This document shows, one piece after another, positions 26,344-31,002 of a stretch of 33,952 nucleotides of DNA; within the stretch, counting starts at the first letter, position 1; every line of letters begins with the position of its first letter. A program made the position numbers and the translations under genes. The stretch is taken from contig JAFPBK010000004.1 of the NCBI GenBank assembly GCA_017424105.1, positions 1-33,952 of the forward strand, in the 5' to 3' direction. Below the pieces are notes generated by a model that was not told where the DNA came from, ran no database searches, and worked only from the letters and a program-made list of their open reading frames with translations. The stretch is from Kiritimatiellia bacterium. Its GTDB lineage: Bacteria; Verrucomicrobiota; Kiritimatiellia; RFP12; UBA3636.

Positions 26344-26396
26344 ATTAGTAATTTGTGTCAAAGGTTTTACCTACTAAAAATATATTTGAGGCTTTT

Positions 26397-27428
26397 ATGG
26401 AATCAGTAGAGAAAAAAGCAGTTGCAATTTTTACCGCAGTCCCTAAACAACACAATTGCGCACAAGCAATTGCCGCAGCAGCAGGCAGAGAAGATTTAGT
26501 TGCGGAATTAGCTAGTGCAGGAGGTGGCCGTGCAGAGGCTGGACTTTGCGGAGCTCTTTATGCAGCAATGGCTGTTGTGAGTGAATGCGATAGACAAGCT
26601 CTTAAACGTGATTTTGAGCAGCTCGCTGGTGCCGTAGGTTGCCGCGACATCAAATCACAAGTTAAGCTGCCTTGTGTAGAGGCTGTACGCATTGCCGGAA
26701 GCCTAGTAGACAAATATCGCACACGTGATATGTCAAAAGACCTACGCAAAGTAACTATTGAGCGTAATTTTACAAAGTATGCTGCTGGCTCTGTTGTTAT
26801 TCGTCAAGGCGATACTTGGGTGTTGTGTACAGCTTCTGTAGAAGAAAAGGTGCCTCCTTTCCTTCGTGATAGTGGACAAGGTTGGGTAACAGCAGAATAT
26901 AGCATGCTTCCAAGTAGCACATTGCAGCGCAAAGATCGTGAAATTAAAAAAGGTAAACCTGATGCTCGTAGCTCAGAGATTGGCCGATTGATCGGTCGCG
27001 CATTGCGTGCTGCTGTTGATATGAAGAAGTTAGGTGAACGCACAATTACAATTGATTGTGATGTCCTTCAAGCAGATGGCGGTACACGCTGTGCATCTAT
27101 CACAGGTGGTATGGTTGCACTCGCTGATGCAATTGATAAGCTAATTGCAGACGGAAAACTTACAGAGAACCCAATTTGCAATTTTGTTTCTGCTATTAGC
27201 GTTGGTATTTGTAATGGCATTCCAGCACTTGATTTAGATTATATTCACGATTCAACAGCAGATGTAGATTTAAATGTTGTTATGACAGCAGATGGACGTT
27301 TTGTTGAGTTGCAGGGTACTGCTGAACACGAGCCATTTACAGATGAGCAGTTAAATGCTCTTAAAGCATTGGCTGTAAAGGGCAATGCCGAGCTAGCTCG
27401 TCTACAACAGGAATGCCGTAAAAATTAG
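26397..27428 (+). CDS. rph: RNase PH with N-terminal C_GCAxxG_C_C-like domain
   Basis: 343 aa. Residues from about 110 form RNase PH, a phosphate-dependent 3'-5' exoribonuclease that trims tRNA 3' ends: [82 protein letters not shown]. The usual N-terminal RxDGR motif is degenerate (YRTRDMSKD). In front is an extra domain of about 105 residues whose cysteine pattern (NCAQAI C21, [14 protein letters not shown]51, VGCRDI C82, LPCVEA C93) matches the putative redox C_GCAxxG_C_C family. ATG 26397 has TGAGG five bases upstream; GTG 26355 has none. The fusion is in frame with no sign of a break. Role of the extra domain unknown. Confidence 0.9.
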
Positions 27429-27496: not shown

Positions 27497-28837
27497 ATGG
27501 GATTACAAAAGCTACGTAATAGGTTAGGGGAGTTCTGGTGGGCTTCGCTTATCTTCTTTATTGCATTACGTTTTGGTGATGCAATAAATGCTATTACTGG
27601 GTTATATGTAGTCCCAAAATTTGTTTCTCAGGATGAGCTTGGTGCTGTACTTCCTATCCTCAATTTCACTACATTTCTGAGCTTGCCTCTTTCTATTTTT
27701 ATTACAGGTTATACAAAACTTCTTAATATTTGTTCTGTAAACAATGAGTGGGGTAAGGTCAAGCGCATGTATCTTGATGTGCTGCGCTATTCTGTTGTTT
27801 TTGTATTGCTTAGCATACTTTTAGTATTAGTCTTTCATAAGCTAGTTTTTGAGCGACTCCGTATTCAAAATGGCATGCTTGGTGTAGTTATTGTTGTTGC
27901 AGGAATATTAGGTGCTTTTGCACCTTTATTTACTAATACACTTCAGGGGTTAAAGAAGTTTCGCGAACTTTCTCTAGTAAATATTATTTCTGCACCAATA
28001 AGGCTTATTGTTATTCTGATAACAATGCCAATACGTCCTTTAACAGGATTCTTTGTTGCTCATGGTTCGGTTCCGTTTGCACAAATTGTTGCTTCAACAA
28101 TTGCTATACGAAAGACGGTTTTTTCTCGCGATGTTTTGCAAGAACCATATCTTGATGATAAAACAAAGCGTTGGTTTATTCGTTACCTTTTATTGAATGC
28201 AATTTATGTATTTCCTATGATAATTGGAAATTGTGTTGAGACGATGGTAATACGTCAGCGTCTTGCAGCAATAGATTCGGCTGCCTATTATATGCTTTCC
28301 AGAATAGCCGAAATAGGTGGTTATTTGGGATTAACTTTAATGGTTGTTATATTCCCATTTGCTTCAGAACAGCATGAAAAGAAGAAAGATAGTGATTTGT
28401 TGCTTTTGCGTGTGATAGGAGCTTCTGCTATATTTTCTTTATTATTTGCAATATTCTGCTATTTTACTAAGGATTTAGTTTTTTCTATTTTGCCAGCTGG
28501 AGAAGAGTACTTGGGATATACAAAAGAGTATATGCTTTTGATATTTAATTTTTCTGCTTTGGCAATATGGTATTGCTTTGTAAATAATGAGATTGCTGCT
28601 GAAAGATTTTCGTTTTTACGATATCATCTTCCACTTCAAGCAATATTTATTGCATTGATTTTTGGATTGACGGGTTACGGATATTTTTATGGCTATTTGC
28701 CAAATTCATGGGTAGATTCTATACGCGATATAAATGCATGTCGCTTAGATTTTCTTTTGACCCTAATTGCTATTATTAATTTATTGCGTTTGTTATTTGC
28801 TGCTGGGCATATTTGTGCCCGCCGCAAATTCCGCTAG
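27497..28837 (+). CDS. Flippase-like polytopic membrane protein (MATE / polysaccharide-export type)
   Basis: 446 aa with about 12-14 hydrophobic segments across the full length. The N-terminal pattern (FIALRFGDAINAITGLYVVPKFVSQDELGAVLPILNF, in two halves) and the internal duplication resemble the MATE/Wzx-like oligosaccharide flippase superfamily, which moves lipid-linked sugars or drugs across the inner membrane. No residue motif fixes the substrate, and no glycosyltransferase genes are beside it. The basic tail ARRKFR is likely cytoplasmic. ATG start has no strong Shine-Dalgarno. Might also be an uncharacterised MOP-superfamily member. Confidence 0.7.
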   Translation: MGLQKLRNRLGEFWWASLIFFIALRFGDAINAITGLYVVPKFVSQDELGAVLPILNFTTFLSLPLSIFITGYTKLLNICSVNNEWGKVKRMYLDVLRYSVVFVLLSILLVLVFHKLVFERLRIQNGMLGVVIVVAGILGAFAPLFTNTLQGLKKFRELSLVNIISAPIRLIVILITMPIRPLTGFFVAHGSVPFAQIVASTIAIRKTVFSRDVLQEPYLDDKTKRWFIRYLLLNAIYVFPMIIGNCVETMVIRQRLAAIDSAAYYMLSRIAEIGGYLGLTLMVVIFPFASEQHEKKKDSDLLLLRVIGASAIFSLLFAIFCYFTKDLVFSILPAGEEYLGYTKEYMLLIFNFSALAIWYCFVNNEIAAERFSFLRYHLPLQAIFIALIFGLTGYGYFYGYLPNSWVDSIRDINACRLDFLLTLIAIINLLRLLFAAGHICARRKFR

Positions 28838-28857: not shown

Positions 28858-28915
28858 GGCGGCTTCAGCCGTCCTTTGCTTCAGCCGTCTTTTGCTTCAG
28901 CCGTCTTCTTTTTTT
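28858..28915 (+). terminator. Hairpin plus 16-bp tandem repeat and T-tract after the flippase gene
   Basis: GGCGGC (28858-28863) pairs with GCCGTC (28868-28873, one G-U) around TTCA. The right half, GCTTCAGCCGTCCTTT, is repeated three times at a 16-bp period (28862, 28878, 28894), and the third copy runs into TTTTTTT (28909-28915). Only the first copy has the pairing GGCGGC arm next to it. Likely intrinsic terminator whose 3' side has been duplicated. Confidence 0.65.
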
Positions 28916-29017: not shown

Positions 29018-29947
29018 ATGGCTAGAACCGCTACAGTAAATGCACCAGGTAAAATAAACCTAACCTTGGAAATCCTCTCTAAACGTGAGGATGGATATCA
29101 TGATTTGCGTAGCGTGCTTCTTCCAATATCATTATATGAAACAGTTACTGTAACAGAGCGTGATGATGGTCAAATTACTCTTGAGACAGTAGGAGAGGGC
29201 GTAGATACATCAGAGCTTGGTAATTGCCCACCAGAAAAGAATCTTGCTGTAAAAGCAGCATGGTTGATGAAGGATATCAGTGGCACAAGCAAGGGCTGCC
29301 ACATTCACATAACCAAGCGCGTACCAATTGGTGCAGGTATGGCAGGTGGCAGTGCAGATGCAGCAGGTACAATGGAGGCACTGCGTGCACTTTGGCTTCC
29401 AGATGTTGATCGTAAGCAGTTAGTGGAACCATCCGCAATGTTAGGTTCTGATATTCCTGGTTTATTGTACGGCGGAGCAATCCTTATGGAGGGTCGCGGA
29501 GAGATAGTTACTCCTATTTTTGATGAAGGAGAAAAGGCTGCTGGATGCTTTTGGTTAGTAATCGCTTTTCCTGGAGTTGCAATTTCTACAAAAAAAGTTT
29601 ACGAAAATTGCATTCCGTGCTTGACTGACAGGTCTAAAATATGCGATAATGCAATCTATTCCGTACGCAAAGGTGATGTACGGGCGGCATGTCGATATAT
29701 TTTCAACGGTTTACAAGATACCGTGTTTAACCAATACCCAGAAACGAAGCGCTTTTACACGGCGCTTGGCAATGGGGGGGCTTTATCCCAAATGCTTTCG
29801 GGCAGCGGGTCAGCAGTCTTTGGTTTAGCAGAAAGTAAGGAGCATGCGCTCGAAATACAGAGCCAGCTTCCGGAAGGGACTTGGAGCAAAGTCGTTCAGA
29901 CATTGCCCGATAGTGTAATGGCAGCACATGGGCCTTTGACGCCCTGA
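29018..29947 (+). CDS. ispE: 4-diphosphocytidyl-2-C-methyl-D-erythritol kinase
   Basis: GHMP kinase of the MEP isoprenoid pathway, phosphorylating CDP-methylerythritol. Motifs: APGKINLTLEI (K12), KREDGYHDLRSV, ATP loop PIGAGMAGGSADAAG (103-117), LGSDIPGLLYGG (D145), and SGSGSAVFGL near the C-terminus. AAGGACAA precedes the ATG. 309 aa. The natural end of IspE would be near KVVQTL, but the frame continues 44 nt into the tRNA-Gln gene, so residues 296-309 and the stop codon are encoded by tRNA sequence. The last 200 bases are richer in G and C than the rest and contain a run of seven G (29774-29780). Confidence 0.93.
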   Translation: MARTATVNAPGKINLTLEILSKREDGYHDLRSVLLPISLYETVTVTERDDGQITLETVGEGVDTSELGNCPPEKNLAVKAAWLMKDISGTSKGCHIHITKRVPIGAGMAGGSADAAGTMEALRALWLPDVDRKQLVEPSAMLGSDIPGLLYGGAILMEGRGEIVTPIFDEGEKAAGCFWLVIAFPGVAISTKKVYENCIPCLTDRSKICDNAIYSVRKGDVRAACRYIFNGLQDTVFNQYPETKRFYTALGNGGALSQMLSGSGSAVFGLAESKEHALEIQSQLPEGTWSKVVQTLPDSVMAAHGPLTP

Positions 29948-29977
29948 GTTATGGTTCGAATCCATATCGGGCAACCA
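29904..29977 (+). tRNA. tRNA-Gln (anticodon UUG)
   Basis: Full cloverleaf, 74 nt with encoded CCA. Acceptor TGCCCGA/TCGGGCA with discriminator A; D-stem GTGT/GCAC with loop AATGGCA; anticodon stem TGGGC/GCCCT (position 27-43 is a U-U mismatch) with loop CTTTGAC, anticodon TTG at 29936-29938; T-stem TATGG/CCATA with loop TTCGAAT. Its first 44 bases overlap the 3' end of the ispE reading frame on the same strand. It reads CAA and is served by the GlnRS encoded at 24390-26123. Confidence 0.95.
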
Positions 29978-30075: not shown

Positions 30076-31002
30076 GTGAAAATATTTTCCGGAAATTCAA
30101 ATAGAAAGCTAGCAGGAAGCATCGCATCTTATCTAGGCATTGAGCTAGGTGCAGCAGATGTTGTTTCTTTCCCAGATGGTGAGTCCTTTGTTAAAATCAA
30201 CGAGTGTGTTCGTGGCGAGGATTGCTATGCAGTACAATCAGTTTGCGGCAAACCAAATGAAATGCTAATGGAGCTTTTGATTATGATTGATGCTCTACGT
30301 CGCGCTTCAGCTGCCAGAATTACTGCTGTACTACCAATATATGGATATGCACGTCAGGACCGTAAGGATCAGCCACGCGTACCAATCACAGCAAAATTAG
30401 TTGCAAATCTATTAACAGCAGCAGGCGCAGACCGCGTGTTAACAATGGATCTTCATGCAGCTCAAATCGTAGGATACTTTGATATCCCAGTAGATCACCT
30501 ACACGCATTCCCTGTGATTGTAAAGTATCTTAAGGATAAAAATTTAAAGAATCCTGTAATTGTTGCTCCTGATACAGGCAGTGTTAAGAATGCTTACTCA
30601 TATTCAAGAATGTTCGGCTGTGGCCTTGCAATCGTTGCTAAGCAGCGTAAAGGTGCAGATGAGGTTGAGGCATTCTCTCTAGTTGGCGATGTTAATGGTT
30701 GCGATGTAATTATGATCGACGATTTAACCAGCACATGCGGTACACTATGCGCAGCTGCAAATCTTGTAAAGAAGCATGGTGCTAATAATGTTTATGCCGC
30801 AGTAACACATGGCCTGCTAAATGACCAAGGCCGTGAGCGTCTAAGCAACTCTTCAATTTCTGAATTGATCGTAACTGATACTGTTCCTCAAAATCACGCT
30901 CCAGAGCTTCCTATCACTGTACTATCAGTAGCAGATTTGTTTGGTGAAGCAATTAGACGTATAAATGAAGACAGTTCAATAGGAACCATGTTTTCAATGT
31001 AA
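30076..31002 (+). CDS. prs: Ribose-phosphate pyrophosphokinase (PRPP synthetase)
   Basis: 308 aa. Makes PRPP from ribose-5-phosphate and ATP for purine, pyrimidine, NAD and histidine synthesis. Motifs: FSGNSN and FPDGESFVKI at the N-terminus, YGYARQDRKDQPR (ATP/catalytic flexible region), TMDLHAAQIVGYFDIPVDHL, the PDTGSVKNA loop, and the PRPP-binding segment VIMIDDLTSTCGT, where most family members have DDMIDTAGT, a modest variation. GTG start at 30076 with GTGAGAG upstream. It follows the tRNA-Gln by 98 bp. Confidence 0.94.
   Translation: MKIFSGNSNRKLAGSIASYLGIELGAADVVSFPDGESFVKINECVRGEDCYAVQSVCGKPNEMLMELLIMIDALRRASAARITAVLPIYGYARQDRKDQPRVPITAKLVANLLTAAGADRVLTMDLHAAQIVGYFDIPVDHLHAFPVIVKYLKDKNLKNPVIVAPDTGSVKNAYSYSRMFGCGLAIVAKQRKGADEVEAFSLVGDVNGCDVIMIDDLTSTCGTLCAAANLVKKHGANNVYAAVTHGLLNDQGRERLSNSSISELIVTDTVPQNHAPELPITVLSVADLFGEAIRRINEDSSIGTMFSM

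Follow-up and report, generated by a model that had tools for sequence, protein, structure and literature searches.

The window analysed here, a stretch of 33,952 nucleotides from a Kiritimatiellia bacterium, carries an ispE gene whose reading frame continues into a tRNA-Gln gene on the same strand. The features of the locus are as follows:

29018 to 29947, forward strand: ispE coding sequence, 309 codons and a TGA stop, the last 44 nt lying within the tRNA gene
29621 to 29650, forward strand: candidate intragenic sigma70-like promoter in codons 202-211, with TTGACT at 29621-29626 and GATAAT at 29645-29650
29882 to 29902, forward strand: final beta strand of the IspE fold as modelled by AlphaFold2 (codons 289-295), lying at a near-constant distance from the tRNA among relatives
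29904 to 29944, forward strand: C-terminal tail that the tRNA sequence adds to IspE, about 14 residues long (PDSVMAAHGPLTP) and predicted to be disordered
29904 to 29977, forward strand: tRNA-Gln(UUG) with an encoded CCA (ARAGORN, Rfam tRNA)
29945 to 29947, forward strand: TGA stop of ispE, on the 3' side of the tRNA anticodon arm
30076 to 31002, forward strand: prs, the downstream neighbour

The product of the first gene is identified as IspE (CDP-ME kinase) by NCBIfam TIGR00154 (190 bits against a cut-off of 138.7), and it also matches the GHMP kinase domains PF00288 and PF08544 and solved IspE structures. ARAGORN places a tRNA-Gln(ttg) at 29904-29977 on the strand of ispE, the Rfam tRNA family matches 29904-29974 with 61.1 bits, and the gene shows a cloverleaf, the anticodon UUG and a CCA end. 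It is the sole tRNA-Gln detected in the source genome (79% complete, 141 contigs), and it probably shares a transcript with prs. The original prediction that ispE runs 44 nt into this tRNA, stops within its anticodon arm and takes codons 296-309 wholly from tRNA sequence is borne out to the base by the open reading frame and the ARAGORN and Rfam coordinates; codon 295 straddles the boundary, with T before it and TG after it. The same-strand open frame that enters tRNA-Gln at ispE is over 880 nt long; when up to 1 kb upstream was read where the contig permits, no long open frame on the same strand ran into any of the 30 other tRNAs of the source genome, the longest being 253 nt. ARAGORN also reports a tRNA-Val with anticodon AAC in this genome (L189), which is unusual for a bacterium.

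The upstream neighbourhood has some features of its own. The open reading frame at 26355-27428 has an RNase PH fold at residues 130-342. Its N-terminal extension, about 125 residues long, matches no Pfam family above the cut-off and may reflect a fusion or a wrong start. The open reading frame at 27497-28837 (446 aa), upstream of ispE, resembles a multi-pass membrane protein and has no Pfam match at 0.001. Between this gene and ispE, at 28858-28910, lie three near-identical copies of GCTTCAGCCGTC(C/T)TTT, the first of which has a terminator-like hairpin, GGCGGC-TTCA-GCCGTC.

An overlap of 10 to 122 nt between ispE and tRNA-Gln occurs in 60 of the 63 Kiritimatiellia genomes that have the two genes side by side, these being related genomes, mostly metagenome assemblies, so that the counts are not independent events; the other three have gaps of 3, 59 and 104 nt. 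All 16 ispE loci read in the source family (f1) overlap the tRNA, one (L007) by 80 nt and 15 by 44 nt, counting L009, for which the ARAGORN start is shifted by one and 45 is printed. The 44-nt overlap is also found in f2, f5 and part of f6, together with one 122-nt case; among the other families of the class it measures 44 or 50 nt, and 15 nt in one. The f3 family uses a different frame, in which a TAA or TAG within the D arm ends ispE 15 nt into the tRNA (10 nt in one genome). In f4, a single genus, the frame traverses the entire tRNA in 14 of 14 genomes, and its stop lies 77 to 104 nt past the first base of the tRNA. The pattern was seen again in a scan of named genomes, where the group is Kiritimatiellia, and the junction of L141, read by hand, overlaps by 15 nt. 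In eight genomes of the class tRNA-Gln is separated from ispE (G020, G023, G032, G043, G047, G051, G055 and G057), and it lies beside ispE at none of the 25 loci read in the rest of the phylum. Most of the 59 relatives in the order searched have one close copy of this tRNA-Gln; second matches, at about 73% identity, are tRNA-Gln(CUG) where read. In the phylum search, many genomes of families f7 to f13 of Kiritimatiellia have no ispE match or one weaker than 1e-13, which suggests loss of the pathway or a very divergent enzyme.

Since the source is a draft metagenome assembly, a frameshift in the annotation or assembly could in principle have erased the true ispE stop. The same junction, however, occurs in dozens of independent assemblies from several named projects, and this reading, which we consider scarcely conceivable, is refuted by the relatives. 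The comparison of junctions, which had been proposed as a search for relatives with an earlier stop and an indel here, showed instead that the genus's two sister species and 13 more genomes of the family overlap too, so that neither chance nor an assembly indel accounts for the overlap. A recent loss of the stop, or a sequencing indel, is ruled out by the class-wide occurrence of the junction. Of the two origins first suggested for the tail, loss of an earlier stop is not recent in this lineage, as the overlap runs through the class, and insertion of the tRNA is unsupported, as the order ispE-tRNA-Gln(UUG)-prs is present, with a spacer, in loci of Nitrospinota, Nitrospirota and Acidobacteriota. 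Short overlaps of ispE and tRNA are seen outside the class as well (L262 and L275 of the Acidobacteriota and Nitrospirota survey).

Where the protein itself ends was examined with an AlphaFold2 model built from 35 sequences, in which IspE has a mean pLDDT of 92.1, the final strand comprises residues 289-295, and the tail block 301-309 has a mean pLDDT of 47. The fold is thereby predicted to end at the tRNA boundary (residue 295) and the tail to be disordered, in agreement with the earlier suggestion of an end near VVQTL. In frame-B relatives the distance between a conserved Trp and the tRNA hardly varies, and there is no room for an ispE stop ahead of the tRNA. In the genomes G023, G032, G043 and G055, where tRNA-Gln lies elsewhere, IspE ends at or shortly after the final strand, and the tail is missing from all eight genomes with tRNA-Gln elsewhere. 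Synonymous conservation in the last eight ispE codons, computed per genome pair, is 1.48 times that expected in f1 and 1.24 times in f4.

The strong sequence conservation of LPDGVMAAHGPL might be taken to mean that IspE of this class makes functional use of its tRNA-encoded tail, as might the base at position -1 of the tRNA, which is T or C in 50 of the 50 frame-B junctions counted and therefore makes codon 295 a Leu codon. A tail translated from a conserved tRNA is nonetheless expected to be conserved itself, and the tail is not only predicted to be disordered but varies past the tRNA in the read-through genus (f4), has another sequence (CPVV) in f3 and is missing when the tRNA lies elsewhere. 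A functional role in the protein is thus a weak candidate that disappears with linkage, and we regard it as very improbable. The tail is best seen as a passive, tolerated by-product of a lost spacer, because it is absent when the tRNA is elsewhere and because the stop is whichever tRNA triplet lies in frame.

A search for a separate tRNA promoter inside ispE, one of the checks originally proposed, yielded a conserved sigma70-like candidate. A plain consensus scan, which alone gives no more sites than are found in shuffles, picks out TTGACT-N18-GATAAT at 29621-29650, with TG before the second hexamer and 10 of 12 consensus matches. The site has both hexamers at the 17-18 nt spacing of an intragenic sigma70-type promoter and in sense orientation inside the gene, and it sits in a variable loop of IspE about 250 nt upstream of the tRNA. 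Judged from its position, transcription would start near 29657, about 245 nt upstream of the tRNA; a leader of 245 nt is long for a tRNA and counts against a nested promoter.

In a DNA alignment of 12 family members, TTGAC, TG and the -10-like hexamer are kept where the protein varies, and synonymous identity in the region of the element is 1.4 to 1.8 times the expectation. Scored with an approximate E. coli matrix, the homologous site outranks every other sigma70-like sequence of the gene in 55 of 61 linked genomes, in none of 8 decoupled genomes and in none of 20 genomes from outside the class (Fisher 3.6e-7 at a score of 9 or more). Shuffling of synonymous codons rarely yields such a site: the combined p, over 32 genera with the worst genome of each, is about 1e-15, an upper bound on the strength of the result since the genomes are related and not independent events. 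The -35 columns read T57 T61 G60 A61 C60 of 61, in genes of 38 to 74% G+C, and in G010, G008 and G045 TTGACA lies one base off the usual codon frame and encodes different amino acids, which points to conservation of the DNA and not of an LT dipeptide. Six linked genomes have another best site, four of which retain TTGAC. Among five decoupled tRNA-Gln genes, three have a strong promoter-like site 17-29 nt upstream, one has a site at 76 nt and one has none.

Some further observations concern the same part of the gene. In f4 ispE loci (L136, L135, G021 and G044) the loop is enlarged just upstream of the element, and in G021 it reaches a length of over 100 residues with a high content of P, S and E. 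At 29750-29770 in ispE there is an inverted repeat, AGCGCTTTT-N-GGCGCT, with third codon positions that are unusually conserved in the family. A sigma54 site near 29750, considered by eye, was rejected on account of its wrong spacing.

The promoter-like element also recurs in other phyla. Among loci with tRNA-Gln linked to ispE, the best promoter-like site falls in the same IspE loop in 20 of 23 from Acidobacteriota and 21 of 23 from Nitrospirota, these being drawn from the best-scoring 30 loci per phylum and not at random, and likewise in the Nitrospinota loci read. Codon-shuffle tests are significant in each of these three groups, with combined p values of 3e-20, 3e-16 and 2.5e-5. The element is absent from all six unlinked Nitrospirota loci that are uncut by a contig end. 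The tie of the element to tRNA-Gln is not absolute, because three Acidobacteriota loci without tRNA-Gln retain it: L257 and L267, which have tRNA-Phe downstream, and L280, which has only prs. Two further exceptions, L276 and L292, are cut off by the end of their contigs.

Which gene the element serves can be addressed from these same loci. The tRNA is usually followed by prs, and in E. coli a prs promoter lies inside ychB/ispE, a gene that has a strong internal site of its own (TTGATG-18-TAGAAT, codon 222). It could therefore be proposed that the target of the internal promoter is prs with the operon below it, and not the tRNA, and the retention of the element with prs alone in L280 would fit such a role. 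On the other hand, the element is kept in L029, L030, L059 and L049, where prs was not found downstream, and it is absent from three of the unlinked Nitrospirota loci that keep ispE and prs adjacent without tRNA-Gln (L305, L306 and L311). We consider this proposal unlikely. As the element is kept without prs downstream and lost once the tRNA moves, it most likely serves tRNA-Gln, perhaps together with prs.

Taken together, we think it likely, from the pattern of sequence conservation, that loss of a spacer brought the start of the tRNA up to the final codon of the IspE fold, that the resulting tail is tolerated, and that the tRNA is made mainly from a nested sigma70-type promoter in ispE. tRNA-Gln(UUG) would be an old downstream neighbour of ispE; once the spacer had been lost in Kiritimatiellia, the frame would have to end inside or beyond the tRNA, and its stop would be whichever tRNA triplet lies in frame, shifting as the tRNA sequence changes. 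Two transcripts would then be expected. A short one from the nested promoter, without the ispE start codon, would supply tRNA-Gln and probably prs, and its tRNA part, not being translated as IspE, could fold and be cut freely by RNase P. A long one from upstream of ispE would be translated into the tRNA to make IspE, and where RNase P acted first that copy would become a non-stop mRNA. Promoter activity, start site and processing, as well as the supply of most tRNA by the short transcript, are what we infer from the conserved element.

The point made originally, that RNase P cutting at 29903/29904 would remove the ispE stop, holds by the logic of the tRNA position. The source genome has a tmRNA gene (C38:1182-1532, tag ADEQFALAA), and tmRNA-family matches were obtained in 11 of 11 genomes searched, eight of them over the cut-off. 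It is possible that cleavage of the long ispE mRNA creates a non-stop mRNA, and tmRNA tagging could follow since tmRNA exists. A regulatory version would have tmRNA tag IspE for destruction, with a race between ribosome and RNase P setting the output, and there is precedent in the arfA mRNA of E. coli, where RNase III cleavage yields a non-stop mRNA for tmRNA (PMC3989581). The variable position of the stop (10, 15, 44, 50 and 77-122 nt) nevertheless speaks against a tuned device, the overlap is lost in three linked genomes and, with linkage, in eight, and the nested promoter-like element would be a separate source of tRNA. Such a coupling therefore seems to us improbable, and the suggestion that tRNA-Gln output depends on ispE translation is likewise disfavoured, because the conserved element would probably allow the tRNA to be transcribed separately, a situation near to the one originally named as refuting the idea. 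A broader proposal would have the tRNA-Gln promoter in the IspE loop predate the split of several phyla and shape the protein there (Leu-Thr...Asn), with the tRNA also terminating ispE translation in Kiritimatiellia and RNase P cutting and trans-translation limiting IspE per transcript; in this full form we find it improbable too.

Thus, an essential tRNA supplies the stop codon of a protein gene and is, by present evidence, driven by a promoter kept within that gene. The nested promoter-like element is kept over great evolutionary distance, and the linked and unlinked genomes form a natural experiment on how a promoter constrains a protein. The locus also offers a test bed for RNase P cutting of a translated messenger. 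In practice, annotation rules that bar overlap of coding sequences with tRNAs will mis-trim IspE across a whole class.

Searches of open-access papers yielded no account of ispE with tRNA-Gln and prs, of an overlap between ispE and tRNA-Gln or of such a promoter, although one may exist, and a general literature search for bacterial tRNA-CDS overlaps returned mitochondria and phages only. Three known systems nevertheless bear comparison. As with arfA, a cut within the coding frame would leave tmRNA a non-stop mRNA to act on; arfA, however, has a dedicated hairpin and a hydrophobic tail for control, whereas in ispE it is RNase P that would cut, and control is not indicated. The arrangement in E. 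coli is alike in that a promoter within ispE would transcribe the downstream gene or genes, but there is no tRNA between ispE and prs in E. coli and the site, at codon 222, is not at this loop position, while the element described here tracks tRNA-Gln and recurs across phyla. Compact mitochondrial genomes contain same-strand overlaps of tRNA and protein genes, and there too the protein gene lacks its own stop ahead of the tRNA and tRNA processing would cut the messenger. In Kiritimatiellia, by contrast, the overlap is found in bacterial genomes of free-living size, the frame takes in at least 14 codons of tRNA sequence, and the arrangement is retained class-wide.
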